The notes below the pieces were generated by a model. It ran no database searches, was not told where the DNA came from, and saw nothing but the letters and a program-made list of their open reading frames with translations. Shown piece by piece: positions 5,507 through 57,259 of a stretch of DNA of 64,000 nucleotides. The position numbers and the translations under genes were made by a program. The first letter of the stretch is position 1. Each line of letters starts with the position of its first letter. Source of the DNA: Metridium senile (Eukaryota > Cnidaria > Anthozoa > Actiniaria > Metridiidae); contig OX459097.1 in the NCBI GenBank assembly GCA_949775045.1, positions 16,716,210-16,780,209 of the forward strand. The letters run 5' to 3'.

Positions 5507-5548
5507 GGGCTACAATGATCTATTCATTTATAACTAAAAAGACTCGCT

Positions 5549-7066
5549 ATGACTCGGATGTGTTCATTGTGTCGGAAGTCAGTCAAAAATTTATCATCCC
5601 ATTTGAGTCGAGTCCACAAAATAAATGGACCAGAACGTACATACTGGTATCAGCAAGGAAAAATACCTAATGATGATAGTCATCAAAAACCTACAACCCT
5701 TCAACTTGGAAATGGATCAATAGAGAATTGTGGAAAATTTCAGTTAGAGCACCCATTCACTGCGCTTGTAGCGGGTATGACAGGATCAGGAAAAACATTT
5801 TGGGTCCAAAATCTGCTTAAGCATGCAACTCAAGTTATCACACCTGTGCCACAAAGAATTGTGTGGAGCTACTCACAGTGGCAGCCGGCATACGATAATA
5901 TGTTGAAAACAGTTCCTGGAATTGAATTTATTAAAGGGGTGCCTCACGATATTGACGAAGATTGGTTTTTTGATGCAAAATTCAATAACCTGATTGTCAT
6001 TGATGATCAAATGTCTGAAACCTCTAATGATAAACGCATCCTCAATTTATTTACCAAAGGATCTCACCATCGAAATCTTAGCGTCATTTCCATGGTACAG
6101 AACCTTTATTTTCAAGGGAAAATAATGCGAACTTTAAGTCTAAATACAGCCTATCTTGTATTGTTTAAAAATCCGAGAGATAAACTCCAAATAACTACCT
6201 TGGGCAAACAGATGTACCCCGGAAAAACAGAGCAGTTTATTCAAAAATATGAAGCCGCTGTCCAACGGCCTTACGGATATCTTTTTGTGGATCTCAAACC
6301 CAATACCGCTGAAGAGTGTAGACTGCGGGCTAATGTTTTGCCCGAAGAAAGGGCTCCTACCCAGTCCTCAGCTGAAGCTCACTCAAACACGGCCTTAGAA
6401 AGTTTGGTAAACTATTTTGAGCGTCAGAGTGTTATGCAGCCACCACAGTTAACCATATTGCAGGGATTGAATAAACAAATGCAGAATATCCTCAACGAGC
6501 CAAATGTTTCATCGGAAATAAAAATGAAAAGATATTCTCAGGTGTATCAACGCTATTTAGATCTAGAAAAACAACTAAATAACAATTCTTCAAGAGTTCA
6601 TCTTCCATCTAATATCCCTATGGTCGAAGCATTACCTACGCATGATGACAACCTAGATGAAACTCAACCTACAACCCCTCAAAATGCTCCATCAACTGGA
6701 GTATTCGATAGTGGCTTTGAGAGCTTAACGGCTATGCCTAAAACAAGTGCAGTATCATCAATTCAAACCAACGAATCATTACTACCTCACTCTTCGAGTA
6801 GTCAAATGCTAGAGAAAGCTTCGTCGACACCATTAAAGGCTCCTTCTACTTATGAAGTCAGAAAACCATCAACCTTATTTGATCCTGAAGTTAGTTCATC
6901 ACGACAAACACTATTACTAACGCCACCATCTTCATATAAGAAGCCTGTAAAATGGCTCAATTATGCCGATTCAATGAAACAGAAAGGCATCCCAGAACCT
7001 ATTCGACGTTCGGATAGATTAAGAGCAGTAATCAAGAAGCCTTCAGAAAAGTGGCAGAAATATTAG
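5549..7066 (+). CDS. Polinton/adintovirus-like DNA-packaging ATPase with N-terminal zinc finger
   Basis: An intronless 505-residue ORF. Residues 76-83 (GMTGSGKT) form a Walker A motif and about 148-154 (LIVIDDQ) a Walker B. Around them is the pattern of FtsK/HerA-type genome-packaging ATPases of Polintons/Mavericks and adintoviruses, including a later SLNTAYLVLFKNPRDK stretch. In those families the enzyme pumps DNA into capsids. A CxxC...HxxxxH finger (residues 5-23) precedes it, and a long low-complexity Ser/Thr/Pro tail (about 270-505) follows. A TATA box precedes the gene and AATAAA follows at 7129. No Polinton polymerase, integrase, protease or capsid gene is recognisable nearby, so this is a solitary captured or left-behind gene. 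It could be domesticated; the open frame shows only that it is not yet broken. The family call is by motif. Confidence 0.75.
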   Translation: MTRMCSLCRKSVKNLSSHLSRVHKINGPERTYWYQQGKIPNDDSHQKPTTLQLGNGSIENCGKFQLEHPFTALVAGMTGSGKTFWVQNLLKHATQVITPVPQRIVWSYSQWQPAYDNMLKTVPGIEFIKGVPHDIDEDWFFDAKFNNLIVIDDQMSETSNDKRILNLFTKGSHHRNLSVISMVQNLYFQGKIMRTLSLNTAYLVLFKNPRDKLQITTLGKQMYPGKTEQFIQKYEAAVQRPYGYLFVDLKPNTAEECRLRANVLPEERAPTQSSAEAHSNTALESLVNYFERQSVMQPPQLTILQGLNKQMQNILNEPNVSSEIKMKRYSQVYQRYLDLEKQLNNNSSRVHLPSNIPMVEALPTHDDNLDETQPTTPQNAPSTGVFDSGFESLTAMPKTSAVSSIQTNESLLPHSSSSQMLEKASSTPLKAPSTYEVRKPSTLFDPEVSSSRQTLLLTPPSSYKKPVKWLNYADSMKQKGIPEPIRRSDRLRAVIKKPSEKWQKY

Positions 7067-8991: not shown

Positions 8992-11979
8992 TTACATTGC
9001 AAATGAAATACTCCAACCGGGACCGCTTTCTTTAAAGGCCGGGACATAGAAAGCGGCAGACACCGCGACATGACGCAGGGAAAAATCGCTTTTATGTGTT
9101 ACCAGATTGAATTTATGCGGCTTGTCGAAGATTTGCTCATGAACTCTACGTGTCTTAGAGCAAAGACTGTAGCTGAGTCTGCGACAATACTTTTTAAAAT
9201 ACATGTACAATGAAATCACACTAATATCATCCATACTTATTACCTGACTCTTTGTTCTTGAAAACCAGTGTGAGTAGGAAGTATCTGATATAACATTTGG
9301 TTTTGCCGGGTTCTTTTGACACCGAGGTTTATTAGCCTTCAATAGCTCTTTTTCCGATACAAGATGGACACAGGAATCTCGGTAACAGTGGTTTTTGTCG
9401 TGTTCTTTGCAAGAAGTAGGGCAAATAGGACAACGTATACAGAAGTCAAATTCAGCTAAACTTTTCATCCAAGGAAAAGATGTCACCATTTTGTTTAGAG
9501 TTTCACGCAGGAATTCTAGTATGGACTTGCACTGTTGAACATCATCAAGTCGACCTAAGTTCACGTCGTCGATTAAGGCTACTGCAATTGTTGCTGTATC
9601 GGCCATGAAAACCAAGCTAAATTCATAGTCTTCATCAAGCTGGAAGTAAAACCTACAAAAAAAAAAGAGAACAAAAAATATATTGATTAAGGGAAAACAA
9701 TAAAACTATTAAAAAGACTAACACCCTGTCCACATTATCCACATAAATAGTCACCGAAAACGGAATTCCGTCCAAGTGTGGACGGCTTTAAACTTCCGTT
9801 TTCGTGGTCATCAAGAAATCAACTTTACTCGGTATAGAGTGGATGGGGCGTGGAAAGAGTATATACCTTGCAAAATTTCGTAAAGTGAGGTGCGGTGGAG
9901 TGGAACTCTTCCATTTCAAGTTGTACATCTCGTCAACTGCAACTAGAAGTCTTGGAAAGAGGCCCAAAGGAAGATGCAAACTCTTAAATCGAACCACCAG
10001 TGGGGAAGCACAGTTGACACTTTTTACAAGTTTATGCGTCTCATCGATTGTACTATTTGACAACATTGCAGGAACAAGAAACGATCCATCCCGTTGTTTG
10101 CAAACGAGAGAGAACTTTTCCATGATGGTAATTAACGATTCAACTGATGTGTCATCGTTCAGCAAGTCCTTCCACAGGTATTCAGTCGAGAAACTTGACG
10201 TCGATAATTCCTTGATCCTCAAGTTTTCGCCATTCATCTTCATACCCTTCGTGACATTCAAACGGTTGAACAGTTATCACTTTAGCGAACATGTCAAGCA
10301 GCCACTGCGTGTCGATGATTATCATACCAGTTTCTGGAAAATGTATTATCACTTTAAGGTCATGTAAATAGTTCAGTAATGTCTCGAGTTCACCTGATGA
10401 GATATCCACTTCACATTGTAAGGCAATACCTTTGGCTTCTTGAAGTGTAATGTGCTTTCTCTTCTCATCTCGGGCAAGATGCTCCAGTTTCTTCTCAAAG
10501 AGCAGCCATCGAATTGGAATATCCTCATTCTTTTGTGGAAGATTGTTTGCCTTTTTACATATTTGCGTTTTAAGTTGTTTTATGTCCGCATCCTCAGGGC
10601 TTGAGCTTCCTGAAACTGTGTTGTCGACAGTGTATATTTCATGAACGACGTGACGCCCTGGTGCAAAGTCTTTTTCTCTAAGCGTTGCGAGAATCTTTCT
10701 TGCAGTTTTTGTTACTTCTGCTTCAAAAGGTTCATCAGCATGTGTTGAGACTACAAAGACAGGGGAACCTCCTTCCAGCATTGAGTTAGCATCAATCAAG
10801 GACAACCAGAATTTCAAGTGGTCAATATTTGTCATGGGATCTTGATCAATCTTCCTTTCTACTGCTCCAGTCTTTACTATGGGGGTTGCCTGAGCATGTA
10901 GGTCCTTTTTTAAACTATGAACAAGAAGATAGATGCCTTTTGGAGGAAGAAACACTGAATGAGTGACGCTATAGACTGGCTGCCCTGCAAAATCCATTGC
11001 CTGGAAAAATAGGTAGTTTTCCATTTGCTTTTCAGCATCAGGGTTTTGTAAAATTGTCTCTGTATACCTCGAAACTTCATCGGGAAGTAGTTCGGGCTGG
11101 TTGAAGTCTGATTCGTGGTTCTGAACATTGTTCATGTTTTGATGTTCATTATCATCTACCATTTCAGGGTCTTTTTGCAGCTGTAGGACTATTGGTTCTA
11201 CTGAGCGAGCCGTTGCGTGGTTCTCGACGCCACCTTCTTGGTTCTGGATGCTATCTTCCTGAGTAGAATATTCTTGATGATTATTCTCTAAGCTGTTAGT
11301 GTCATCTTCATTGTCTGACTTTGGTTGTGCAATCTTCTTGAACCAATGCTTCACAACTCCCATTGCTGTGCAATGATTGTACAGCAAGTTTTCGTTGCTT
11401 TCGTTTTTCTCCCAGTTACCATCTACCTTTGATAAAGAACGCTCAAGTTTTGCTCCCACAGTGCTGTCTTCAGACAAATTAAATTCCTCCCCTATACAAA
11501 AATAAAAATAAATTATTTATAATAATAATAGTAAGTCTGTTTAGTGTCCCTTCACAGCCGGGGTTTCGTACCTCCTTAGGTCTACGTACGTCCCCTGGTG
11601 CATGCAGTTTGTAAGTTTGTGTGTAAGCGTCCTTATTATCTGAAAAGCCGCCAAAGTCTAACAAATTACAGATAACATTATAGTCTATGTTAGTGCGACG
11701 GTGACACACAACCCGCACTACCATTATAAAAATCGAACGCAATTCCGTAACGATAGATGCATATCAAAATATTAATTAATAAATATATTTGCAATAGATA
11801 CAACGCTTTACCATTAAGAGATCTTAGCAAGCTTGTTTTTCCAGAGCGTGATTGACCAACCAAAACAACTGGCACGCGAGTATTCTTAACGCTTCCACTT
11901 TTTAAAGCATGTTTGTAGGCACTTTGTGCTTGTGGGCCACGCGCAAGAATTTCAGGTGGGACTGTATCGGACTCCTTGT
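8992..11979 (-). pseudogene. Roco-family (ROC-COR) GTPase, 3' part, frameshifted
   Basis: Three exons on the minus strand: 11979-11812, 11491-9867 and 9652-8992, with phase-compatible GT-AG junctions. The first ends in a P-loop (GQSRSGKTSLL). The second carries DFAGQPVYSVTH (the G3-like motif of ROC domains), the STHAD G4-like motif, then a COR domain. Roco proteins are large multidomain GTPases acting in signalling and innate responses. Near 10180-10200 the reading frame ends just after KFLD, while the COR sequence continues at once in another frame as TEYLWKDLLND, so a small indel breaks the gene; an assembly error is possible. 5' exons are not in the window. A cysteine-rich stretch (CIRCPICPTSC) lies in the last exon. 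Confidence 0.7.
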
Positions 11980-39200: not shown

Positions 39201-39534
39201 TTACAGCATGCCCGCGGAGGAAATACTTGCAAACAAACGCCAGGATTTTGAAGGCATCCTGTAAACACTGGACTGGACTTTGGACTGGACTTTAGACTTT
39301 TTGACAAAATTTTGTTTTTGTTCTTTCCTTTTTTCCTTTTACATCATTATATTTCCATATTTCATTTTATTATTATCAAAAATCTTGAATGATATTTTTA
39401 TATATTCAAAAAACATATTTTTTTAGAATTAGTGAATTTGATAATAACCAGCCGATTGGAACGTAGTTGACAGTGTTTTGTAATAAAAAACAAAGAATTT
39501 GCCCGAAATTCTTCTAATTTTTCAGGACTACAGA

Positions 39535-39622
39535 TAGCCTGATTGTCAGAGCGGGCCTGGGTCCGACGCCATCACTTTCTCCCCAAACTCCGTCTGATGG
39601 ACTTCGCCGGATACCGTGTTCT
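39535..39622 (+). repeat. Left 88-bp terminal inverted repeat of the giant transposon
   Basis: Matches the reverse complement of 56914-57001 at 87 of 88 positions; the mismatch is at position 36. Probably includes transposase binding sites and lies upstream of the DUF6589 gene start. Confidence 0.95.
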
Positions 39623-40509
39623 TGACGTCACTGCACTTTGTCTTACCAAGGGCCAATGAGATCGCTTGTAAGAACTAAGTGCAATGACCCGCGAATTTCA
39701 TTAAATATTACGCGCGGTAATTCTCAATTTACATAATGTGATATGCTAAATTCCACTCCTAAAAAGGCCGTAATCTTACCATTAGATAAGTACCATTGCA
39801 TAATTTGCGGCGTGGAAATTTCTTCACAAGAACGTTTATCTATATTTGGAAGGTCCAAGGTCGATTTCAAAGGAGCAATTTCGAAAGTTATTGAGGGAGA
39901 CATACAACTCAACGAAGAAGAACACTATATTTGCACGAAGAAGTGCCGAGCAAGACTTACAAAATTCCTAAAATTGTCATCAGAATTACAGGAACTAAAA
40001 GGCGACTTAAAACAAGAGATTCTAAAATGTAATTCCGTCCGAATCAAGCGAGGAATCTCGGACCTTTCGCCGATCAAGTCAGCTTCTACCCGGGCTTCTA
40101 GAGAAGGAATATCAACATGTACAGGTCGTACAGGACCGAAAAAATCGCTATTTCCTCCAACTTGTTCATCTCTTCTCTTAACTCAAGTTTCAACTCCGTT
40201 GTTTGTTCATTCGTCGCTAGCTGAGTCAAGTGAACCTTCGTCAGTTGAAGTGCCAGTACCATTTCTCACACCTTCACTATCGCTAGGACGAAGCAAAGAA
40301 GCTTCAAACAATCGGGAGCCTTCTGTTCAGGTATTGTACAATTTTTATTTATCTTGAGTGCAACGATTTCATCGGTGCAAATATTTCGATTTAGTAGACT
40401 CCTGCTTAAAATAACGTCTATTGTTTAATATTTATTGTTTAATTTGTCATTTAATTGTTATAAAATTAATGTACTTTACTGGCCTGGCATCTTTTTAGAT
40501 CAAAAACAA

Positions 40510-40742
40510 TAAAACCATGAAATAAAAACATAATAGTTACTAGCTAATAGTTTCTCATTTAATAGTGACTATTTAGTCAGTATCACTCAACCAGAAACAT
40601 CAAAATTTATACAAAGGGAAACAATACCTCATTACAACTTTACTCGTCTTTTATAGTAACTAATAGTCACTAAATAAGAACTATTACAGTACATGCAGTA
40701 GCATTTTGATTTTCTTTCATGAACAAAGTGCTTTTGCTCTAA
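40510..40742. mobile_element. MITE in intron 1 of the DUF6589 gene
   Basis: The right end GTGCTTTTGCTCTA and internal CATAATAGTTACTAG / TAGTAACTAATAG phrases match the MITE at 47405-47622. The left end is less clear. Confidence 0.55.
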
Positions 40743-40838
40743 ATACCAATAAACTTCTAATTATAATTATTTATAAACTCATATATTATGATCTTATTCT
40801 TACATCTGGTAATGAAGTCTTATTTCTTCTTTGATATT

Positions 40839-41115
40839 GGGCCATTCCATTTTTTGTCCGTGGACCCCCGATGGAAGACCACGGATATCCTAGGGGAAGG
40901 GGGCCTCTCAAATAACAAAATCCAAGGGGGTTACACTGTGTTTCCAATGGGAACTACCCCCCTAAAATTGATATATTCCAATAAGTTGCAGGGGTAATGA
41001 GCCAAAATCCCATGGGAAGTAGGCTAAAAACTTAAGTTTCCAATAGGACATAGGGGGGGAAAACATACAATAACTCCTCTATCGGGGGGGGTTTGGATTT
41101 TAAATGGAATGGCCC
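40839..41115. mobile_element. MITE, 277 bp, ATT flanks, intron 1 of the DUF6589 gene
   Basis: The left GGGCCATTCCATTT and right AAATGGAATGGCCC are perfect inverted repeats with ATT on both outer sides (40836-40838 and 41116-41118). Confidence 0.8.
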
Positions 41116-42757
41116 ATTATTATAATCACACAAACTTCATTCATGGTTATCATTATAATAATAATTATGTAATTTACCCTATTCATCGAGTAATAAATGA
41201 ACAATATGTAAGTTATACAAATAAGTGTAATCATTTTTTTTTTATAAAGGTACTTCTAAACTATCCAGAGTGTAATAAAAACTACAGAGCTGTCTTAGAA
41301 GAAGATTTGCAGCCTCTAGGCAAAGCGCTGGCTAGAAAGGCATCTCACCAAAAGATTGCCACAGCTATTTTCCGCTCTCAGAAGTTGAAATATTGGGTGG
41401 TTAAAAAGATACTGGCTAGTGTGACTAGGGAATGCATTGACCTGTGCTCTAAAAAAAACCCATCTCTATTAAGGGTAAATGAACCAGAAGAAATGCTGAA
41501 TTTTACTTTGTCCAAAGTCTGTACTGAATTCAAAGTACGAGCCCCACTGTTTTATTCCTTCCTTAGAAGCTGTGCTACCTCAGATGATAAAAGTGATTGG
41601 CTACCAAGTATTGCTGTTGCTGGATCTGTGCTACTGAAGCAACGAAATGTCCATATGAATGCCACACAATCATTGATATCTTTGATGGTCCGACAAAATG
41701 GAGTTCAGGTAGAAATTTTTTTATGTGATTGATATTACCTGAATCCAAATGTTCTGTCTGTCCGCTGTCATCCATAAATATTGTAAAAAGATGAATAACT
41801 TCTAGTATCCGGACAGGAAGGCCTTACTATTTTTATAAAATTTAATTATTTTCAGGATAGGGGGTCATTTGGCCTGATTTTCATACAGGTCTGGGTCCCA
41901 ATTTTAATCACAATTTTATGTTATTATTTTCCAACCTCTCTGTTCATCTACACACAAAAATGTTTTTTTCTCATATTAATAATATAATAATAATGATAAT
42001 AATAATAGTAATAATAATAAAACTGTCTTTTAAATTTCATAAACAATATGTTGCAACAAATCCACACTACCAATGATCACTTGCATAAAACTCCTTGATT
42101 GTAATTGTGCTTAGTTTTAACTGCTCTGTTTCAAGATAACAGTTGTTGTGCAAGCTATTTACGGCCTTTTTTTATTTTTATCTTATTGCAGAAACTTCTC
42201 AATCGTTTAAACATTATGAAGCTTTCTTTGTCATCAAAAAGTACATTGAAGAGACTTGATACGTATGGATCAAAGTTTGACCAAGAGCTTGAAAAGATGA
42301 AAAGCACCACAGCTACAACAGATGCACAATCAGAGAATAGTTACCAGGGAAACCACAAGGTTGTTCTTGACAACATTGACCTGAAGATTCTAACGAGAGA
42401 TATGACAGCTGACAGACAGAACAAGGATATACATTGGTGTAACCATATAGCTGTAAAGAACCGTGCAGTTGATAGAGAAAGCACTATGGATCATCACGAC
42501 CTTTTAGAACTGGATAATTGCAAAATTATGCCAGAGACCAATGACAATCAACTACTGAGGAAACATTACATACAGCTAATTGCACGCATACTTGTGGAAC
42601 ACCTGCCTTGCTTCAATTTCTTAAAACATGTATGCCTCCAACATATCCAACACAAGTATACCAAGGAAATGTCAGAAAAATCAGAAAAGGTAAATTAAAT
42701 ATTATCATAGATTTTATCATAATTTGTAATAAATTATGAGACTTTTGGCTTAATTGG

Positions 42758-42903
42758 TAGAGTAAACGCACTTAATCCATGAAACAAAAATAGTACAAAA
42801 TAGGTGCTAAATTATGCTAATTCCTTTGTTCTCTAAGGTCTCATCAACACTTTTTAGCAGTAATTAGTAATATTTGTTTCACGGATTTAGTACGTCTACT
42901 CTA
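42758..42903. mobile_element. MITE with TAGAGTARAYGCACTTAATCC-type ends (copy 1)
   Basis: The left TAGAGTAAACGCACTTAATC and right ATTTAGTACGTCTACTCTA pair as inverted ends. In intron 3 of the DUF6589 gene. A sister copy is at 43700-43842. Confidence 0.75.
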
Positions 42904-43379
42904 CCACACCATATATATTTAATATATAATAATATTAATAATTTATTTCTTAAAAACACATGTTTACATAATCCATAATATAAATATAATATGAATATAT
43001 AAAATATTCAATATGTTCAAATAAATAAATGGTAAAATGAGATAAAACTTATGCAAAATAAACAATTATAATATAAATGAAAAATTAAGGAAAAACTATA
43101 TTAAATACAAGATAAATTTCAGTGTCCATAATACTTGGGAAAACAATTTGTTAAATTATATAAAAAATTAATATGATTTTTGAAATGTGTCTTTTATGAG
43201 TATGTTTGATACAATCAATGTCATTAACATTGTAGATTTTAATTAGAGTTCAACACTATAAACACACGGGCACATAAATCTTTGTTTTCAGCAGTAGAAA
43301 TTTCAAATTTTATACTGTATAATCAGTTAACAATATTAACGAGGATTATGATGAGAATCTCATACTTCATTATTTTAAA

Positions 43380-43690
43380 GCGCGCCGATTGGCTGAGAAC
43401 GAAACCGGATGCGAGGGTATTTAGCGTGGAATACCCTCTCATCCGGTTTCTGAATCGCATGGCGGGAACGGCGGAACACGCGCGTCTAGTTTTTGAAGCT
43501 TAAATTGAAGAAATGAGATTCAAGGAAAATTCATTTTTGGACTCGGGAATTCCACGTTGAATTTCACTCGAAAAATCAATATCGCACTCATCGCTCCGCG
43601 GACTCCGCGATTTATGCGATATTGATTTCTCTCGTGAAATTCAACGTGGAATTCCCTCGTCCTCCAATGAATTTACCTATATAATACATA
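43380..43690. repeat. Inverted GC-richer repeat (CCGGATGAGAGGG / GAATTCCACGTTGAATTTCA)
   Basis: Two small hairpins: AAACCGGATGCGAGGGTATT with AATACCCTCTCATCCGGTTT (about 43400-43450), and AATTCCACGTTGAATTTCAC with its complement (about 43546-43660). Less AT-rich than the surrounding intron. The two may be separate MITE remnants. Confidence 0.65.
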
Positions 43691-43699
43691 TCTTCATAC

Positions 43700-43842
43700 T
43701 AGAGTAGATGCACTAAATCTGTGACATATAATTAGTACTAATTAGTACTATTTCAATAAAAAAATGGTTTTCTATTGTTTTATTATCACTATTTAGTACT
43801 AAATTTGAGTATTTGTTTCACGGATTAAGTGCGTCTACTCTA
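43700..43842. mobile_element. MITE with TAGAGTAGATGCACTAAATC ends (copy 2)
   Basis: The left TAGAGTAGATGCACTAAATC and right GATTAAGTGCGTCTACTCTA pair with few mismatches. Same family as 42758-42903, in the same intron. Confidence 0.75.
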
Positions 43843-46219
43843 CCTATATTGCATATGGCTAATGAAGTACCTCTATAATATATAGAGGATATTACATGTT
43901 CTGTTTATTATATAAACTCATGACAAAATAAATAGCAAAAGTTATATCAAGATATGCTTCAAAAAATATTAAAAGTTTTATCAAATAGATGGTAACATGT
44001 TATTTCACATGTGAAATAACATGTTATTTTCACAATGTGAAGATATCACTTTTTTGCGCAGGAAATCACCTGATATTTCATTGAAGTTCATATAATAAAA
44101 TGAAATATTAATTACTTGTGTCAATAGATTCCACTTGGTGTTATCTTCAAAAGTGAAAATAACTCTGAAGAAATGTTGGAAATTTTGTCTCAAATACAAG
44201 GGTATTCTGGTATACAAGTTAATACAAGTGTTCCTGTGGTTGGAGACCAACTGACGATTGAGCGTGGTGTAAATGTTATCGAGGCTCTGTAAACTTCATA
44301 TACACCAGAAGAAAGATTTGATGGTGTACATATGGAAATAGCAGATTGGCATTCTGCTGTTACTTTCTTGAAGGTTATTATAAAACTATGATAACTTGAC
44401 TTTTCAATTCTCTGTTTGTTGTCTCATCAATATGAGAACAAATAACTATTCATTTCATTTATGTTTTCTATCCTCATTTAAACACAGCTACAAACTACAT
44501 TTGACTTGACCAGGCCCAGAAATGATTTACTCCATTTTATTATAAAATAATATATTGTAATTTACCATTTCTTAACTTATTTATTTATGACTTTGTGGGT
44601 GTTTGTCGACTCAAAATTGTTAACTCAATAACCACATACGCCACCTAATAGCCTTATTTTCAGGGCGGTCCTATGCTTACAGAACCTTACTTTAACTTCT
44701 TGTAACATATATTGAACTTGTGAATTCAGATATGTATGTATCTATATGTGTCTATTCTTTACTTTTATTTATTTACTCACATTTTAAAAGTTACATGAAA
44801 TTACAACATTAAAGAAATATATATATATATATTTCTGTCTTAATTGTAATTTTATGTATTATTTTAAAATATGTGTGAATAAACAAAAGTCTAAAAGTCT
44901 TAAAAGTATATGACTGATAGCACAATCCTCACATTAATAGAATGACTTTTAATACTGATACTTGTTTATATGTTTTTAATTTACAGGTCATATTTAACCG
45001 ACATTACTCTGCCAGTTCCGATGCAGACCAAGGAACACTTTATGCTAACAGAAATGTTATTAATAGACGAAATGTTGTTGCGGATGTTACTAGTGCCTGG
45101 GCTCCTTGTAAGGCTTTCATGCTGCTTGATATCAAAGCACGTGTTGTAGCTGCAGCAATGAACATTCTAGACATGAAGGAACTTAATCAACAACCCAAAA
45201 CCTTTGTTATTTCAGAGGAGCTAAAGCATGCACCTGATCTTATTAAACAGTTGTATCTACAAAAAATCTCTATCAAGATAGTAGATAAATTCATATTAGA
45301 TCAGGATCTTCAAAATGATGTCATGAAGAAAGTTCTATCAAATCAAGAGCAGGAGGACATATTAAATAACCAGACCCTTACAGCCGATGGGAGGTTCCCC
45401 TGCAGACACGAAGGATGTACAAAATCATTTAAATATGATGGCCAAAGTAGAGAAAAACATGAGAGGACTCACAATCTACCCCCAAAACCGACAGAAATAC
45501 CAACTTTGAAACCCAAGTATCCTGACCTGTTATCCAGTGAAAAGAAACAAGATGATGCCTACAATTATAACTGCTCTGTGCTGAACCATGGATTATTGTT
45601 CATGAATTTCTTGGATGCCACAGCTGAGGGTGATGGTCCTAGACTGATGATATGCTGGAAGTTTTTTCTACTACACTTCAGAGTTGAAAAATCAACGTAC
45701 AAATATGCCTTGGAAGCTCTTTATTTGCAGTTTCAAGTACAGTCCTTACTCTCTCCTGCTCAAGCATTCAATCTGGTTCACAATCGTACTGTCAGCAATA
45801 AAGGAGGACCTGGTAGAAATGAGTCACTGGATCTTGATTTAGAACATGAAAACAACTATCTAAAACAGCATATTAAGGGTTTGGGACCCAATGTCTCCCC
45901 AGGTCCAGTCACAAGAATCTGCCGTGCACAGAAAGTCACTAAAACTGTACTAAGTAACTTTGATAATGAGTGTTTCGTTGTGACTAAATCAGGAAAGCAC
46001 ACTTCTGCAGATTACAGCAAAGATCTCAAAACAGTTATTGACATACTTGTCAAAGAGTCTGTTTGCATCTTCACTCCAGGGAGGCAATACTCAACTTTTC
46101 CTAACATTAAGAGGGACCCACTTTCTGCAATTGACATGTCCGATATGTACAAGTGGATAAATATGCACAAAGAAAACATTGAGCTTGCTAGGAAAGCACG
46201 CTAATCTTGAAATGGGTAA

Positions 46220-46870
46220 TATATGCTATACAAAACTAAATGTAAAAAAGAAACAAAATAAGATTTAAACCATAGTTGTGTTGAAGAATACAGTTAAAGT
46301 TTGTAAATAGAAAAACATAAGAATGTTAAATGATTTCATATTAGGATGTAAAACTAATAATCATTATTTATTATTTGAAAACAAAATAAGATTAAACCAT
46401 TGTTGTGTTGAAGAATACAGTTAAAGTTTGTAAATATAAAAACATGAGAATGTAAATGATTTCATATTAGGATGTAAAACTAATAATCATTATTTATTAT
46501 TTGAAAACAAAATAAGATTAAACCATTGTTGTGTTGAAGAATACAGTTAAAGTTTGTAAATATAAAAACATGAGAATGTAAATGATTTCATATTAGGATG
46601 TAAAACTAATAATCATTATTTATTATTTGAAAACAAAATAAGATTAAACCATTGTTGTGTTGAAGAATACAGTTAAAGTTTGTAAATATAAAAACATGAG
46701 AATGTAAATGATTTCATATTAGGATGTAAAACTAATAATCATTATTTATTATTTGAAATCAAAATAAGATTAAACCATTGTTGTGTTGAAGAATACAGTT
46801 AAAGTTTGTAAATAGAAAAACATAAGAATGTAAATGATTTCATAATAGATGTAGAAAGGATAATTTATAT
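46220..46870. repeat. 126-bp tandem array, about five copies
   Basis: Units beginning acaaaataagattaaacc repeat with a 126-bp period and few changes, from just after the DUF6589 stop codon. The array sits between the 3' ends of the two convergent genes of the giant element and may supply their 3' sequences. Confidence 0.9.
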
Positions 46871-47255
46871 TTATTATTTAAAAACAAAATAAGGTTTGAA
46901 GCACAGTATATAGGTTGATATTTTTTTTATTTTTTGAATCAGTAAATCAATTTACAAGGCCACTGAACTTTTTATTTTTTGCTTAAAACGCTTATCAATT
47001 TCATTACATGTGTAAGCTTTTATTTATCTAAACCATATTTATTTTCAAATCCATTTGAGTGGCATTTGTGAAAACTAAACTATAGGCCTTGGCAGTCAGT
47101 TTGCTGGTCATGCTTGTTCATATGTTTTGTTTATATATGTTAATGTTCATGTTTTGCTATAAAATTAAAAGGAAATTATATAGCAGCGTTATATAAAGTT
47201 TATCTTCTTGTGTTCAAAAATATTATGTTGTCCATAGACCTTTCCATAGTTTAGC

Positions 47256-47366
47256 TCAGTGACCATGCTTAATAGTTCCAAGTCGAGGTTCCAGCTGCCA
47301 CACAAAACTATAATTTATCATACTACTGGAACCTCGACTTGGAACTATATCATTCATGGTCACTGA
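47256..47366. mobile_element. Hairpin MITE
   Basis: The left TCAGTGACCATG plus TAGTTCCAAGTCGAGGTTCC pairs with the right GGAACCTCGACTTGGAACTA plus CATGGTCACTGA; total about 111 bp. Confidence 0.8.
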
Positions 47367-47404
47367 ACCTATTTAAAGATAACTTTCATATCTTTGCACT
47401 ACCA

Positions 47405-47622
47405 TAGAGCGAAAGCACTAGAACCATGAAACAAAAACAAAATAGTTACTAACTAATAGTTCTTATTTAGCGACTGCTAGTTACTATAAAAGACAAGTTA
47501 AGTTGTAATGAGGTATTGTTTCCTTTTGTATTTGATGTTTCTGGTTGAGTGATACTGACTAAATAGTCACTAAATAGAAACTATTAGTTAGTAACTATTT
47601 TGTTTTTAGTGCTTTTGCTCTA
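47405..47622. mobile_element. MITE with TAGAGCGAAAGCACTA ends
   Basis: The left TAGAGCGAAAGCACTA and right TAGTGCTTTTGCTCTA pair, and the interior pairs through AAATAGTTACTAACTAATAG. It lies just downstream of the original stop codon of the split helicase gene. Confidence 0.75.
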
Positions 47623-48173
47623 GATTCAAAAAATCCATGAGTTCATGTTGCTTTATTGTTGTTGTTGTTGTTTAGTTCATTTGAATGTTATCAATCATAT
47701 CAGCAACAACCTCTGGGATGTTGCATTCATCACCTAGGTCAGTGGAGGCTTCTAAGAAACTCATATCCTCTGGAAATATTCCACTATATGAAAGTTCATT
47801 CCAGTCAATGTCCATTAGTTCTTCGTTGGGGATAACAATGTCCCACATATCATCATCATCAACAAATTCAGTAAATTCATTATCATCACCACTTGATTTG
47901 TTATCACCTTTAAAGGGGGACTAGCACAAGAATACTACGAAAGTGAACTGCAATTTAACATAACCTTTTTAGCTTTAAATGATGAAAAATAAGTAATTCC
48001 TTCTTATTTTGCCAAAAAAAATGGTGTTTTAATGCATTTACCTAACAAAAATTGTCATTAAACCTACTTTGAACACCTATTCGCCATCGCTGGACTGTCG
48101 CCTACTTGGCCCGCATTTTTTTGTACAGCGGTCTGCGCGTGATGTCAGTTACTTGATAGACTTGGCATACAAC

Positions 48174-50549
48174 ATGGCTTCTGATTCAGAAAGTACTGAC
48201 TATTCGAGCGATTCAGAAAGCGTTACTATGAACCCAGGTGAAAACATTCTCTCTCAGGACGATGAGGACATAGAGCCGATCGCTACTGAAGAGGAGAACG
48301 AGTTATATAGACAAACTTTAGCCGCCGAAGAAGAGGAAGAAGCGATGCTAAAGAGACGTTATGAAGAGCAAGACGTTCATTCGTGGTATGTTTATAATAC
48401 TTACCATCGATTTCTTACCTTAAAATGAATGGTTTTGTGTATTTTTTTTGATAATTATTTACAGCAATTTTACTGTTTCACAGGTGCAAGTGTACACACT
48501 GCTCTTTGGAGTTGATAACAAAGCCGGAGGAATGCTTTTGTTGTTGCGACATCGATCGGTGTCAAGAAAGGCTAGCAGAGCTCGTCGAAGAACCGCCAGC
48601 ATGTATAACAGATCACCCTGGCTTCTCATCTGGCTGTCTAGATGAGTGGGTACTCCAGATAGCCGCCATCGGATTGAAAACGCGGAAAAACAAGCGCTAT
48701 ACTGTTATGTACGAGGAAAATCGCGTTGACAAACACAAGTAAGATATATTTGACTTTAAGGCCCGGGCAAACGGTTTCAACATTTGCTTCAACATTCGTT
48801 CAATTTTGTTGATTTAAACTCTTTCAACATTGTCGAAACGTGTTGGATCAGTGTTGAATCAAAATCGAAAGGATGTTGAAGCAAATGTTGAAACCGTCGG
48901 GCCTTTTAGCTTTTAGATATTTGATAAATTTTTTTCGTATTTGTATACTATACCTAATATATAGATTATTCATTATAACTTCATTGTAACTATTAATTTC
49001 AGATTGTAATTGCCATTGTTTCTGTGACCTGTAAATTTTACTGTTTTGTATTTAGAGTAAGGGTGTTTGATACTAGTGTTAACCACTTTCCTATATTATC
49101 TTAATTTCTTGTTTGTAAATTTATTGTGTGGAAAATAAAACCATGAACCAACTTTAGAGTTTTTGTCGAATTTCACATTTCTCTCTCGTGTATTCAAGAG
49201 CAGACACAATAAATTATTTAGGGATTTTGAATTGTTTGAACAATAAATTGATTGTGATCGAGGTCTCTACTGTATTTATTACTTACTTTTTATTATTTAT
49301 TTGTTGTTCATTTGTCAAGAAAAATAATTTATTGTATTTATATAGTGCTTATACACACAACTTGAGATGCCAGTTTCATCTACATGAACATGTCCATTAT
49401 TTTTTTATTTCTTTTTAGTGTGGTCACACTTTATAATCAACCATTTACATTTCTAGGTTCTTACGATCAGTAGCTTACCGCCAGTTTATAAGACTGGTAT
49501 GGGAGTATATTGGCAAATCAAGAAGGCTTCCTTTACCTTGCTGTGCCTATGATAAGATCAGAAAACAGTTCCCATCTGAAGATGGACAATACAAGGGCTT
49601 CGAGGAGGAAGATGATGAAGAACAGAATGACTCAGAGGTAAACATTCATATATTTGATTATAGCTGATATGATATAGTGATGGTGTTGATGAACAGAAAA
49701 AACAAAAACATTTAAAACAACTATTATTCGGTCACAATATCAACAAATCCTCACTGAATAGATATTTCAAAAATTTCAAAAATCAATTTCAAGTTATCAA
49801 TAATTTTTTTTAAACTAATTCCTTGTATTTGTCCCCATGTTATGATTATTATGTCTGTTGCTGACACTGGCTTCTGTTGTGCCCTTTCATTGGCTGTCCA
49901 CATTTTTTGCATGAAGGTGCCTTTCTTTGTTTTGGTCCAATAGTCGTCCATTGTCGAAGTTGTTCATCTACAAAATTAATACACATGAAAAATGTTTATT
50001 GTGGTTATCTATGTATTTTATATATTACATACCTGTACATGTTGGTGGGACTATTGTTGTTGCTTTTGCTTTTCTTTGCCTGTATTTAGCCATGGCATCT
50101 AGTTTGGAATCTTTATCTAATCCAAAGCACATTGGCCCAGGAACACTGTTGTCTAGTTCAATTTCCATCTCTTTTAACTTGTCTCTTGGTGTTGTGATCA
50201 ATGTCATATAAATCTCATCAACATAACCTGTCAATGAATATCAGATATAATTGTAGTACTACCAGCAAGTATTTTTTTAAATGATATTTTTTTTTTTAAA
50301 GTAAATTTACCAAATTTTTGTGGTATTTTTTCTTCCTTGACTGTTGCTTCTCCATACTTGTATTTTGGATAGTGTACTCTGAGGTTGGCTTCACCATGAT
50401 CATTTACTACTGACTCTCTTTTCACATTATAATTAAAATGCAGTGCTGCCAGATATGATCTAAAATAAACGAATCATATCAATGGATTGGAATCAATTAT
50501 CTTTTTTGTTATTCAACAGGATTTGGATGAGGAAGATGATGAACAATAG
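48174..50549 (+). CDS. P2X7-C-terminus-like ('ballast') cysteine-domain protein carried by the Kolobok
   Basis: Exons 48174-48385, 48484-48738, 49457-49637 and 50520-50549 join with correct phases into 225 residues. An upstream in-frame Met at 48069 is possible, but the MASDSESTDYSS start at 48174 has a better context. The first 70 residues are acidic. About 71-200 carry a cysteine cluster (WCKCTHC, ECFCCCDIDRC) followed by VAYRQFIRLVWEYIG and LPLPCCAYDKIRKQFPS, the pattern of the zinc-binding intracellular domain at the C-terminus of vertebrate P2X7 receptors. No membrane segments, so it is not a channel. The tail is again acidic (EEEDDEEQ). A zinc-dependent protein- or DNA-binding accessory role in transposition is inference from its location. 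Confidence 0.8.
48758..48905. mobile_element. MITE in intron 2 of the Kolobok accessory gene
   Basis: The left AAGGCCCGGGCAAACGGTTT and right AAACCGTCGGGCCTT pair, and the interior pairs through CAACATTTGCTTCAACAT. Related to 36473-36666 by its terminal motif. Confidence 0.7.
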
Positions 50550-53500
50550 AAGATCTGGGTGTTATTATTACTGACAGGTAAGTAGTTAGTTGTTTATACA
50601 TTGTATAGTCTAGTACCTGCTTAGCATTCCAAGATAAGAGTACGCCAACATTTTAGGGGCAAATTGATTTATTACCGAGTGGTACCCTTCTAAATAACTT
50701 GTCTGACCATTTGAAGAGGCCTTTTTTATTGCTGTTGTAATATTGGTTGTACTTAGGGCATCAACAAGTTTTCCATATGCTTCTGATCCTGCAATTAATT
50801 TGAACAAACAAACTTCTAATTCTGCCAAAAATGCATTGTAGCTGATACAAATGCATTTTAATATTACCTTTTGTCATCCAGACCCTTTCTTTGGTAAGAG
50901 GATCATGAGCACAAGCATTAAATATGCGATTTGGCAATTCTTTGTGGACATTTATCACATGTGAGAAAAAACTTTGAAATTTTGCTAGTTTAACCTCGCC
51001 CAGAAGTTCCTTGGTTGTTGTTACTGACCAATAAAAGTGTCTGACACACTTTTTTCTCCACCGCCCAATTAGTTCACATGATTTCTCTTTACTTAATTTG
51101 ATAAGTATCTTCTGGATTTCTTATAATAGAAACAAATATATAAGTTTACAATTTTATCTGCGGTATGCAGACATGTAATACGTTAGGGCATATATGTTAC
51201 ACAATGCAAAAATGAATTTGAGCTATCAGGAGGTTGACAAGATCCTTTTTGAAAATTACATCACTGTGATTTATTTGAAACTTTGTTGTTTCTCTGGCCT
51301 ACTATGGGTGTAAATGTAGGTGTGGCATAACTACTTACTTTTTGCAACATGCCAAAGGTCATAGAAATGATGTACTACAGGCTTCCCAAGTTCTTTACAC
51401 ATTTTGGGACATTCTACACGCATCCATTTTCCAATAGACTTATGTCGATCAGAAATGAATGACTTAATTATCATTCCAGTAGTGAACAAGTAGGCAAATG
51501 CCCTTTGGTGCCCTAAAAATTCCATAGCAGTACTGCTACCAGCTTCATTAGCCTGAAAATAAAATCACTTAATAACTTATTTATTCTTAATTCTATATTT
51601 TTTGTTAGGTGATCAGTGAACCATGAATCCAACATCCTTTGTACAACCCAAGAAATGAATCACAGTGACAGTCTTCAGCCACACATAACTACTGGTACTT
51701 TAAAGTGTTGGAGACACACAGGAAGGCCATAGTTTATACTGTTGTATAATTAGTTCACTTTAAACATGACTTTAAAAATCAATGTTAAAATACCTGAATT
51801 AAAAGAACATCAATAATAAGGCCAATAGTGCAGCATAAGATTGAGTATGTACAGTATTTTGCAGAATGCCCCATGGAATCATGCCTCCCATCACCAGCCA
51901 GGTCTACTTCTTTTCCATCTATACTGTCAATCAATTTTTGCTTGTACGAACGCCAAAATGTAACAACACTTGGTATAAGTAAATGGCGCTGATGGTAGTA
52001 ATATGTTGTTTCATGATAAACTAACAGATTCATGTGCTTGAGTACAAGCAAAACTTTTCTTATGGATGCTCCTGCACACAAAACTGCAAAACTCAGCAGT
52101 AAGTTGCCAGCAGGAATCCTTCCAAGTATTTTGGGCTGACTTTCCCAGATATAAACCTTCTCACATTTCTGACATTTGGAAGTTATTACAATGTATGTTC
52201 CACTTTGCTTGATGTCGATATCAGGTTTTGGACAGAAGCAGTACCGACAGAACTGGAAAAGAACTAGTAGCTTAGATAGGAAAACAATTGCTTTTGGTTC
52301 GTTGCGGGCATCCTTTTCTTCTGTGTCCAATCTAAAGATGAAAAGAAAATAGCAGACTACATTGTATTAATTAAATAGAAATGTAACTTTAATTGTAGCA
52401 TGTAAAAGTATTTTATTGCATATCTTAATGCAAGTATTAGATTGCAAACATTAAATGTGGGGAATACTTTGCACTATTCACTACTACATAGTACTGTATA
52501 AACAATAGAAAACAATAGAATTAGCATAATATAGTACTATTTTCTACAATTTATATTGTAGACATTTAGTGTTTGCACTATATATATGTATACTGCTATA
52601 AAGCTAGGGGTTAAACACTGGAACACACAATCATTAATTCTTAATAAATAATCTTGTTTTTAATTTGAATAAATAGCAAACCTGGTGTTACATGTGACTT
52701 TTTGAGCTATAGTTTCATCGTCGTCTCCATAATCTATATACTGTTGGTCATTATCCTCCGGTATTTCTTCTGGCTCTTCTTCAAGGGTATGTTGCCCTTC
52801 CATGTCGAGCAATTCCACGGGACATTCATTGTCACTGGGAACCCATTCTTCATCAGATGTTTGCCTCTTGTTTTCCTTTTCAGGAAAATCATATGGATAA
52901 GTCTGAGTAGCTAGAAAAAGAAATACATTTATTATCATTATTGTCATCATTAATTATATTTTTTCTTGCTGTCATCATAATTATTATAATCCATTTTATT
53001 TTTTTTATCAGTTATTTTTATATCTATTGTCATTATCAATTATGTACTTTGTGTACATTGTTTTCTTACTTTTTGTTGAGACCACTGGGGCTTTTTTTGT
53101 GTTGGTAGCCAATGCACTCAGCAAATCTGATTCACTTTTTTTCATTCTGCGGATTTTGGTTTGCAGGTTTTTTACTTTTGTCTTAAGATCATGCTGATTG
53201 TTATCTACAGGACTGCTGGCACTGCTACATGTAGGACTAGGATTTAGGTTTGATACCTACATGATTAATCAAAGGAATATTTGAGTTTTATGACTGTCAC
53301 AGTGTTATGTTATAAGACTCTATAGCTACAAAGTAAAGTTTGGTCAGTTACTCATGTATGTCTGAATTGTCAACTTACTGACTGTGCAATAGAATTTTGT
53401 TGGTGCTCCAACTCTAGATCTACTGTTGTTGTTGTTTTTGTTAATTCTACAGCTATTGGTTCTTGTGGTGAGGCTATTTGGTCTTGGACTTGGTTTTCTT

Positions 53501-54500
53501 CTGGAGAGGCCACCTTGGGTACTTCCACTGTAGGTCTTCGATCAATTCCCATGTCTTTAAGCATCTAATTGTAAGGAAATTTTTCATCGAAGCAAAACAA
53601 AACAACTACTAACTTAGACTCGTCAGATTTCAAACATCGCCGTATCAGTGCTAAGTACAAAATATAAGTCGTGAATTACAAAAATCATACTTTTCAACTT
53701 GATTTTGTATTTTGTTTATTTCATTTGTTTATTCATTTACGTGTATTTTCCATGTAGTAAGGTTAAATACAACGCAGTACGTGTCTATATGTCCGGGTGC
53801 GTGACAGAATATTGTCAGGGAGTCGAATTATTTTTACGCCTGGAAATCTCGACTTAATACGGTGAAAAGAATGATTTGGTAGAGCTAAACAAAGTAAAGT
53901 ATGTTTTACTAAACTAGTATGCTATTCTGCAGTGATTTTTTAAAAATTAACATGTAGTTATTCGTGACCTAGTGTCAGGCACGCGAACATATACATACAC
54001 TGACACTGCGTAAATACAACATCGATCACAAAACAGCTAGCTTAGCTAGCTCAGAATTAAAGTTTTACAAACGACATGAATAAGTTTTCTATAAATTTCT
54101 GCTCGAAAAACTGTTAAAATTCAGGAGAAGGACTTTAGCTTATAATATTTATAATATTTACACAGTCAGCAAAACCTACCTTGCGGCGTGTCCTGTCACT
54201 GAACTTGTTATCATTTGGACCTTCGTCGCCGGCTGGAAACCAGATTGTGGGTACAGACCCTTTGATTAAGAATCTCTTGATTCCTTGTACGTTCATTACT
54301 CGCTCAAAACAGCTTCCTTCGAAATGCTTTGAGCACACAACAAATCGATTTTGCGGCTCAAAGTTCGCACTGTGAATGTCAACAAAGCGCTTCCATTTGG
54401 CACATTCGGTCTTGTCAGTAGGCGAGAGATGTAACGAAATGCCATTTTTTGGATCGGATTGGTTGCTACAGCCCTGCACAACACATCTATTTGATGGCAT
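49849..54500 (-). CDS. Kolobok transposase (THAP + DDE + zinc knuckle), 11 exons, intact
   Basis: Exons 54500-54180, 53564-53379, 53256-53070, 52910-52682, 52331-51794, 51552-51339, 51119-50868, 50788-50617, 50459-50311, 50227-50033 and 49967-49849 join with matching phases into 853 residues. It would bind the transposon ends and cut and paste it at TTAA. Residues 1-90 are a THAP zinc finger (C6, C11, W36, C56, H59, SVPTIW at 82-87). A basic coiled segment follows (KVKNLQTKIRRMKKSES), then an acidic linker. The catalytic region shows CQKC, VDLAGDGRHDSMGHSAKY (D455), SDRHKSI (D522), HFYDLWHVAK and LEGYHSVINQFAPKM (E676), a likely DDE triad. A C-terminal CKKC...H...C zinc knuckle ends the protein. 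The catalytic residues are assigned by pattern only. Intron 1 contains a MITE. Confidence 0.9.
52475..52560. repeat. Short TAGTACT / AACAATAGAAAACAATAG repeat
   Basis: aacaatagaaaacaatagaa with nearby TAGTAC motifs also occurs near 27850 and, inverted, near 43770 and 60845. A degraded member of the TAGAGT-type MITE group, in intron 4 of the transposase. Confidence 0.5.
53781..54000. mobile_element. MITE in intron 1 of the Kolobok transposase (sister of 23460-23675)
   Basis: The left GTGTCTATATGTCCG is identical to the recombinase-intron MITE. The interior phrases AAAGAATGATTTGGTAGAGC and GTATGCTATTCTGCAGTGAT are shared. The right end is more degraded. Confidence 0.8.
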
Positions 54501-56913
54501 GCTGAAAAAACTATGTTTGTCTGCTTTTATCAGTTATGAAATTATCGCGTGTTTTGCTTCTCACCTACAGATTCTCTCAGGTTGGTTTATTTCTATCAAG
54601 TAACTGACGTCACAGATCTCGGCCCAGGCTCTTTACCGAGTTAATGATCAAGCGACATCTGAAAAATGGCGGGTCAAAAAACACCCGTTGAAATGAAGGT
54701 CTTACGCTTAGATTTAGCAAAAGAAAATCATGTGGCTTTTTAATGATATTATAAAGATTATAACAATCGAGTTTTTAAGCATTTTGAATTAATTTTGAAT
54801 TTTTGGCCCATTTTCGTGCTAGTCCCCCTTTAACATCTATGTCTCCAAAGACCTCTGCAATGATCTTCAAAATGGAAATAGCATGCCTCCTTTTCCAAAT
54901 CTCAACAAATCTGTAGACATCCGTCAAATTGAAAATCTTGTCACAGTTTGTCAAAATTTGATTTATCTGGCTATCAGAAAATCCTAGAAGCAATTCTGGA
55001 ATGGTGATAATAGGGAGCGGTCCATGGGGTGTCTTCTGTATCAGTTGTGCATACATGTTCTTTCTAAAAATTATCAGTCGTTTCTTCAGCTCAGCCACTT
55101 TCTCTTTATCTGTATTGCGTGTTGGTCCATCGTATACTGAGTTATCCTCCAATGTTGGCAAAAACACGCTTACTTCATCACTGCATTTGTCACACTTTTG
55201 ACTGGACTCGCAAGTGCTTGCTCCATGAAAGAAACTTATCAGGTAGTGACGCCTACAGTCAAATTTTCCTCTGACATAATCTCTCATATCTTGTTCAACA
55301 TGCATAAGCATATGAAATTGGTAAAGCAAGATTGCATTACTTGGTTTGCCATCTCTTCCTGCCCTACCACTTTCTTGAATATATGCTTCAACAGATTTTG
55401 AGGGTCCAAAATGAATCACAGTATGGACTCCTTTACAATTAACCCCCATCCCAAATGCAATGGTGCAAGTTAAGATTTTAATGCATCCATCCTCTTCTGA
55501 CATGTCAGACAGGATATTTTTCTTCACACTCTTAGGTGACAAGGAATGTAGCATTTCCACATTTCTTCTTCGTGGGTTTTCCTTGTCAACAACAAATTCA
55601 GTTCCCAGTTCGTTAACAAAAAGAGAGTACAGGCTTGAACATTGCTTGACTGTTTGGCAGTATACTATTGCTCTTTCAGCATTCTCTTTCTTCTCTCTCA
55701 AGTCGTTTAGAAGCCACTTGAAGTAATCAAGGAGAGGAACTTTCTTGTCCATATAAATGACGCTGTATGCAAGATTATCTTTGTTTGGACTTTGTTGTAT
55801 GTCAACAAAACTTCTTAGTCTTAGAACATCAACAATTGTGGACTTTGTCTTCTCTGTTGCAGTAGCAGTGACGGCCATGAATGGTACGTTTTTTGGTACC
55901 AAAGAGCGTAGCTCGCTCAGTTTGTAAAACCACCTTCGAAAGGCCATGGCATTTTGACTTCTTGATGTTCCCCTTCAAAAAAATAAATGCATATGTATAA
56001 ATAAATAGACACGTTTAAATTAAATTTAAATGAGTATATTTCAATAAGACAGTGTTTTAGGAGATTTATATATAGTTAGTATCTTTTTGCAACCTTGAGG
56101 CCGGTGCGATTTTATGTACGCGTCCGTCACGATAAAAAAGAATTGAGTCGATGTTCAAATCTCAAGTGATGATATAGAAAAATAAACAACTTATTGTAAT
56201 TCTCTATTTCGATAAAAAGAACCGCAAATATTGCCGATATAAAACACGTTTTAAAAAATGATAGCATTGTTTCACACAAAATGTTAACAATCCTCTCGAC
56301 ACATAAAAATAAACTTATAACCAAAATATTAATGAATCAATCAATTGTACTTACCACTGACTAATACAATGAGCTTCATCGACCACAATTCCAATCAAAG
56401 ACTCCTGATATGTGCGGGATTTCAGCATGTTTCTCCATTTTGAATTGCCCAGCAACGACTCGGGTGATGTGTAAACCAGGGTGAACTCACCATTTAGAAT
56501 CTTTTTATTTTCTTCGTTATCATCACCTATAGATGCAGCTTTAATTCCTAAACCACGTAGATAGTTAATTTGGTCTGCCATTAGACTTTTCAATGGTGAT
56601 ATCACGATGAGGATCGGTGTGTACGAGTCCTCAGAACAGTTGATCTTTCCTAGTTCGGAGTGAACTGAAGGGGCCATCTGGAATATAATTGACTTGCCAT
56701 AGCCAGTCGGCAAGTTTACAAACACGTCTTTTCTTTCAATCAAACTAGTTATAGCTTTCTTCTGCTCAGGAAATAGATTTGGAATGGCAAATACTTCGCA
56801 ACACTTGCGAAAACACGCTTCTATGTCGTCCGCCATTTTGATGTGCATTCCTGACATATCTTACTTGGCGAAAAACATAAAGTTCGCTCTGATTGGTCAA
56901 TATCAAACAATGC

Positions 56914-57001
56914 AGAACACGGTATCCGGCGAAGTCCATCAGACGGAGTTTGGGGAGAAAGTGATAGCGTCGGACCCAGGCCCGCTCTGACAATCAGGCT
57001 A
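56914..57001 (-). repeat. Right 88-bp terminal inverted repeat of the giant transposon
   Basis: The reverse complement of 39535-39622 with one mismatch. It lies about 60 bp upstream of the helicase start codon. Confidence 0.95.
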
Positions 57002-57259
57002 GACTACAGAAGGTGGTCTGGTTTTTTACTTCTTCAAAATTGGTTTCACTGAACAAAGGCGACACCATTAATCGTGTCACAGGTAGCCCAAGCTCACCGT
57101 TAGTGTTGATTTACTAAAGGATATATGGGTACTTTTCAACCTTCGATTTTTTGCATTAACATTTAATAGAATTCAATAAAACTCTTACAGAGTCTTTTTG
57201 TTGATCTGTAGAATCCTCTGAGTTAATTTCAGCTGATTTCGTTCAGAATAGACTACTCA

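Follow-up and report, generated by a model that had tools for sequence, protein, structure and literature searches.

The window analysed here, a stretch of 64,000 nucleotides from the genome of Metridium senile (GenBank assembly GCA_949775045.1, contig OX459097.1, positions 16,716,210 to 16,780,209 of the forward strand), contains at 39535-57001 an element in which a plus-strand gene for a protein of the Pfam family DUF6589 and a minus-strand gene for a RecQ-type helicase lie convergently between two 88-bp terminal inverted repeats (TIRs). The TIRs differ by one mismatch over their length and are flanked on both sides by an exact 9-bp target duplication, GACTACAGA (Table 1). These ends, and two convergent multi-exon genes starting near them, had been described in an earlier note made from the sequence alone, and both were confirmed. 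The unit of about 10.5 kb given in that note is also correct once a nested insertion of 6,916 bp is excluded, the element without this insert and one TTAA copy measuring 10,547 bp.

Splicing of the five exons of the DUF6589 gene (39743-46204) gave a protein of 1,002 amino acids (aa), with an X placed at the one in-frame stop, which lies in exon 4. This protein matched PF20231 (DUF6589) with an E-value of 1.3e-41 and 143 bits, against a Pfam cut-off of 27, and a zf-AD-like match at the N-terminus encoded by exon 1 was weak and below the Pfam cut-off. The helicase gene runs on the minus strand from 56857 to 47672 in two exons, the last of which is split by the nested insertion. DEAD and Helicase_C domains were detected above the Pfam cut-offs in its product and a RecQ zinc-binding domain below the cut-off. 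The two helicase exons of a second copy of the element, described below, matched RecQ family models, each exon alone scoring below the NCBIfam cut-off, and in a related family the helicase, encoded by a single exon, matched the Bloom syndrome protein (E 3.5e-47). The window element is a genuine mobile element that brings along both a transposase-like gene and a RecQ-type helicase; the copy in the window has probably lost its autonomy, since a stop codon interrupts the frame of its transposase-like gene and the nested insertion breaks up its helicase gene.

Table 1. Features of the window element and of the insertion nested in it (positions in the window; ORF, open reading frame).
Feature	Position	Strand	Basis or remark
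Left target-site duplication GACTACAGA	39526-39534		sequence read
Left TIR, 88 bp, starts TAGCCTG	39535-39622	+	inverted-repeat comparison
DUF6589 exon 1, Cys-containing N-terminus	39743-40330	+	ORF, GT donor
DUF6589 exon 2	41250-41708	+	AG/GT borders, frame; open in second copy
DUF6589 exon 3, first conserved acidic motif (VLDNID...HWCNH)	42192-42689	+	
DUF6589 exon 4, second acidic motif (VVGDQLT.ER) and DWH	44128-44373	+	
DUF6589 exon 5, Cys/His stretch, conserved glutamate motif (LEHEN), PF20231	44987-46204	+	
126-bp tandem repeat, 5.1 copies	46251-46893		between the two gene ends
Helicase 3' end, acidic C-terminal tail, one TTAA copy included	47672-47913	-	cut off by nested insertion
Left TTAA duplication of nested element	47910-47913		
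Nested Kolobok-like insertion, 6,916 bp	47914-54829		empty site in second copy
ORF with weak Mutator-like match, in nested insertion	51785-52366	-	
THAP ORF, in nested insertion	54135-54533	-	above Pfam cut-off
Right TTAA duplication of nested element	54830-54833		
Helicase exon 2, main part: Helicase_C, QESGRAGRDG, weak RecQ zinc-binding match	54834-55972	-	
Helicase exon 1: DEAD; LPTGYGKS, DEAHCISQW	56355-56857	-	
Right TIR, 88 bp	56914-57001	-	inverted-repeat comparison
Right target-site duplication GACTACAGA	57002-57010		sequence read

Copies of the element and pairing of its two genes

A search with the window TIR gave at least 42 matches in the M. senile genome (389 Mb), a lower bound from the scoring of 40 of 488 first-look candidates, and 30 loci were fetched for these matches (12 matches being without a locus). 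Left element ends were present in 17 of the fetched loci, two belonging to full-length copies, ten having the other end within the locus and five showing none there. The second full-length copy, on contig C1, is 10,274 bp long and flanked by a different 9-bp duplication, ACTCAAACC; the five largest stretches that it shares with the window copy are 97.7-99.5% identical, and the reading frame stays open in every exon of its transposase-like gene (five) and of its helicase gene (two), with no insert. The single mobile unit pairing a DUF6589 protein with a RecQ-type helicase that the earlier note had proposed is borne out by this copy, the one further example found of the full-length copies, with both genes and other duplications, that the note had expected as support. 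The note had taken TIR-bounded copies consistently lacking both genes as the contrary outcome; two of the twelve two-ended copies carry both genes, and the other ten are short (895-1133 bp), without the genes and too small to hold both. Nine of these ten short copies have exact 9-bp duplications, all different, two of which (CGCGCGCGC and ATAGATAGA) sit in simple repeats and are less informative, and all four short copies compared share both ends with the full copy. Because these four are built from full-copy ends, the short copies are read as non-autonomous derivatives of the full element.

The DUF6589 search gave at least 103 matches in the same genome and no match in any of 14 control genomes, and the helicase exon search gave at least 94 matches (lower bounds, with 102 of 175 and 92 of 117 first-look candidates scored, respectively). 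Among the matches listed, a RecQ relative lay within 20 kb of 61 of the 85 DUF6589 loci, where about 0.76 would be expected under uniform placement; for this count matches were merged by distance (4 kb for DUF6589 and 10 kb for RecQ), one helicase exon served as the probe, and copies of one family are non-independent events. Convergent orientation was counted in 58 of the 61 paired loci, and one of the remaining three (C9:13409469) is a merging artefact, since a helicase match on the minus strand lies 1.2 kb downstream of it. Complete ends were found for three further families, each in one copy: an element of 11,056 bp with identical 77-bp TIRs (9-bp duplication AGGGGTAAC), one of 10,485 bp with identical 106-bp TIRs (9-bp duplication AGCGATAAA), and one with short TIRs (9-bp duplication AGTTTGTGT), the end of which was set by eye at TAG. 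With the window family, 9-bp duplications were seen in four families; for families L068 and L071+L072, the fetched stretches showed no termini.

Across the nine families with both sequences available, pairwise distances between the DUF6589 proteins correlated with those between the helicases (r = 0.84), a value reached in none of 20,000 permutations; two of the sequences hold one X, and the proteins of C8 (helicase) and of fam4 and fam5 (DUF6589) were used in part. Groups with support of at least 0.9 agree between the two protein trees, and the order of three families differs (supports 0.73 and 0.85). From this correlation and the tree agreement it is therefore most likely that both genes have long travelled together and have not been repeatedly captured. 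The enclosure of host genes by chance between unrelated inverted repeats, in favour of which only the existence of host RecQ genes can be named, was rejected as hardly credible: the TIR matches elsewhere in the genome, including a second full-length copy with a different duplication, show that the TIR structure of the window is not due to chance, and the repeated convergent pairing and the co-divergence of the two proteins likewise argue against it.

Classification of the element and a DUF6589 family with no helicase detected

Among the DUF6589 loci without a nearby RecQ relative, 15 of 24 belong to two repeated families (10 and 5 loci, by equal scores and ORF lengths). The larger of these, L063 (G000:C10:8442301-8452300), has a 926-aa ORF that matched DUF6589 at 32.7 bits (Pfam cut-off 27), and Pfam detected a helicase domain in neither of its two long ORFs. 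Its long inverted repeats start TAGTCAGG, and exact 3-bp duplications flank nine out of nine other copies of the family, the duplication of the L063 copy itself being TTA, by eye. This family was probably active recently, because its ends are near-identical among copies. A match to the flap endonuclease Xni (E 0.75) was the only hint of a nuclease from searches of L063, and its C-terminal part has what we take, by eye, to be a likeness to XPG/FEN motifs.

The nuclease of AcademX transposons is of the XPG type, and the AcademH lineage is said to have been described already by Kojima in 2020, in Mob DNA 11:15. As stated in PMC10045372, AcademH elements encode a helicase and have 9 or 10-bp duplications, AcademX elements encode a nuclease instead of the helicase and have 3 or 4-bp duplications, and this difference in length is seemingly tied to the encoded helicase and nuclease. 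PMC10045372 and PMC10799480 place the AcademH lineage within the Academ superfamily, which is counted among the DDD/E superfamilies in PMC9587614. The helicase and 9-bp duplications of the window element correspond to this published description (PMC10045372), so that the undescribed superfamily suggested in the earlier note was not upheld; the note had named Academ among the helicase-bearing transposons and missed the link to it. With AcademH the window element shares a helicase gene, 9-bp duplications and a TIR-bounded structure in an animal genome, and the likeness to AcademX is found in the L063 family, with its 3-bp duplications and no detected helicase, from which the window element differs in having a helicase and 9-bp duplications. 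AcademH is the best filing because the same Pfam family shows both duplication lengths, the longer one with a helicase, and the window element very probably represents an AcademH family, within the Academ superfamily, with fairly recent activity, filed here by described features. As a type of element it is already known; what it contributes is the link between DUF6589 and Academ and the contrast of 9-bp and 3-bp duplications in one genome. No statement of that link was found in the paper collection searched, in which the term 'DUF6589' is absent.

Mutator-like elements (MULEs) also have long TIRs, and their duplications are usually of 9 bp, as the earlier note had pointed out in suggesting a divergent Mutator-like branch. 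This was rejected as very improbable, because the 1,002-aa protein gave no match to MULE, hAT or KDZ in Pfam up to an E-value of 1 and because the duplications of another DUF6589 family of this genome are of 3 bp. The target duplication of Kolobok elements is TTAA, which differs from the 9-bp GACTACAGA of the window element, and on this difference KolobokH, or another RecQ-bearing Kolobok, was rejected as a reading that deserves next to no weight. KolobokH is likewise a DNA transposon with a RecQ helicase, confined to fungi according to PMC9587614, and the same source describes a rhodophyte Kolobok-1_CCri whose RecQ lies on the opposite strand, as it does in the window element.

The DUF6589 protein as a putative transposase

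Protein searches gave only three relatives (P0001, P0002 and P0003), the named sources among them being Exaiptasia diaphana and Oculina patagonica, which makes an anthozoan host probable, and no relative was found in viral contigs in one scan. The motifs that recur in DUF6589 proteins are DN-x-D, GD-x, D-x-H (mostly DWH) and a glutamate (E-H/Q in most rows). Five of the six paired families fetched at length have the first acidic motif, and the same five have the second, partly by eye. The glutamate column held E in all of 20 aligned rows, L063 and P0003 included, the rows having been chosen from sequences in hand with near-copies of one family among them. The DUF6589 protein is most likely the DDE-type transposase.

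We infer catalysis by this protein, an RNase H fold and the stage of transposition in which the helicase takes part. Binding of the DUF6589 protein to the long inverted repeats would be followed by cleavage at the ends and their joining to target DNA across a stagger of 9 bp, the filling of which would leave the 9-bp duplication. The RecQ-type helicase, its constant partner, would most likely unwind the duplex where ends have been excised or joined, which could let the intermediate be released, copied or repaired. We put forward, as a tentative and rather doubtful generalisation, that DUF6589 may be the catalytic core of Academ elements at large, and that its accessory enzyme may be obligate, co-evolve with it and set the stagger (9 bp with RecQ, 3 bp without). 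Both versions, with and without RecQ, are present in several copies in one animal genome, which makes this claim testable by partner swap and allows relatives with a helicase and 9-bp duplications to be set beside a 3-bp relative without a detected helicase, as a comparison supplied by nature. Since both its genes are open, the second copy makes it possible to test what a RecQ-type helicase does in such transposition, and a transposase core would be a likely job for a Pfam family of unknown function.

Several observations weigh against an AcademH element with a DUF6589 transposase. The predicted structure of the Oculina relative, P0002, made from a six-row alignment, had a mean predicted local distance difference test score (pLDDT) of 40.2, too low to be of use, and no first acidic motif was seen in the paired family L071+L072, where there was a weak match only. 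At the level of copies, the short copy L018 has no exact 9-bp duplication and five of the 17 left-end TIRs had no partner end inside the 3-kb fetched locus; at the level of pairing, 24 of the 85 DUF6589 loci are unpaired and two paired loci (C1:39617785 and C1:54034895) are truly non-convergent as matched. The filing under AcademH uses the helicase and the duplication length, with reference Academ transposases outside the comparison, and Pfam gave no match in the L063 family to the nuclease expected of AcademX. These last two points, together with the absence of the term 'DUF6589' noted above, would speak for a new superfamily apart from Academ that is like AcademH only in its duplication length and helicase. 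Against this stands the occurrence of both published Academ duplication lengths with one Pfam family (9 bp with a helicase and 3 bp with no detected helicase), and we consider such a superfamily improbable beside the assignment to AcademH.

Insertions and repeats within the element, and other parts of the window

The site of the nested insertion is uninterrupted in the second copy of the element, and the TTAA duplications that flank the insertion presumably point to Kolobok. The 126-bp tandem repeat between the two gene ends is also present in the second copy, where it gave multiple alignments with the window copy. An inverted pair of related stretches, of 42 and 78 bp, was observed at 40563-40686 and 47454-47572, one member within intron 1 of the DUF6589 gene and the other past the end of the helicase gene; these are perhaps small mobile elements.

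Elsewhere in the window, a 510-aa ORF at 5534-7066 gave a weak poxvirus A32 match (E 2.3e-4, 21.2 bits, cut-off 22.8) and possibly derives from an endogenous virus-like element. An ORF at 10182-11516 contains a COR-A domain above the cut-off and probably belongs to a host gene of the Roco type.

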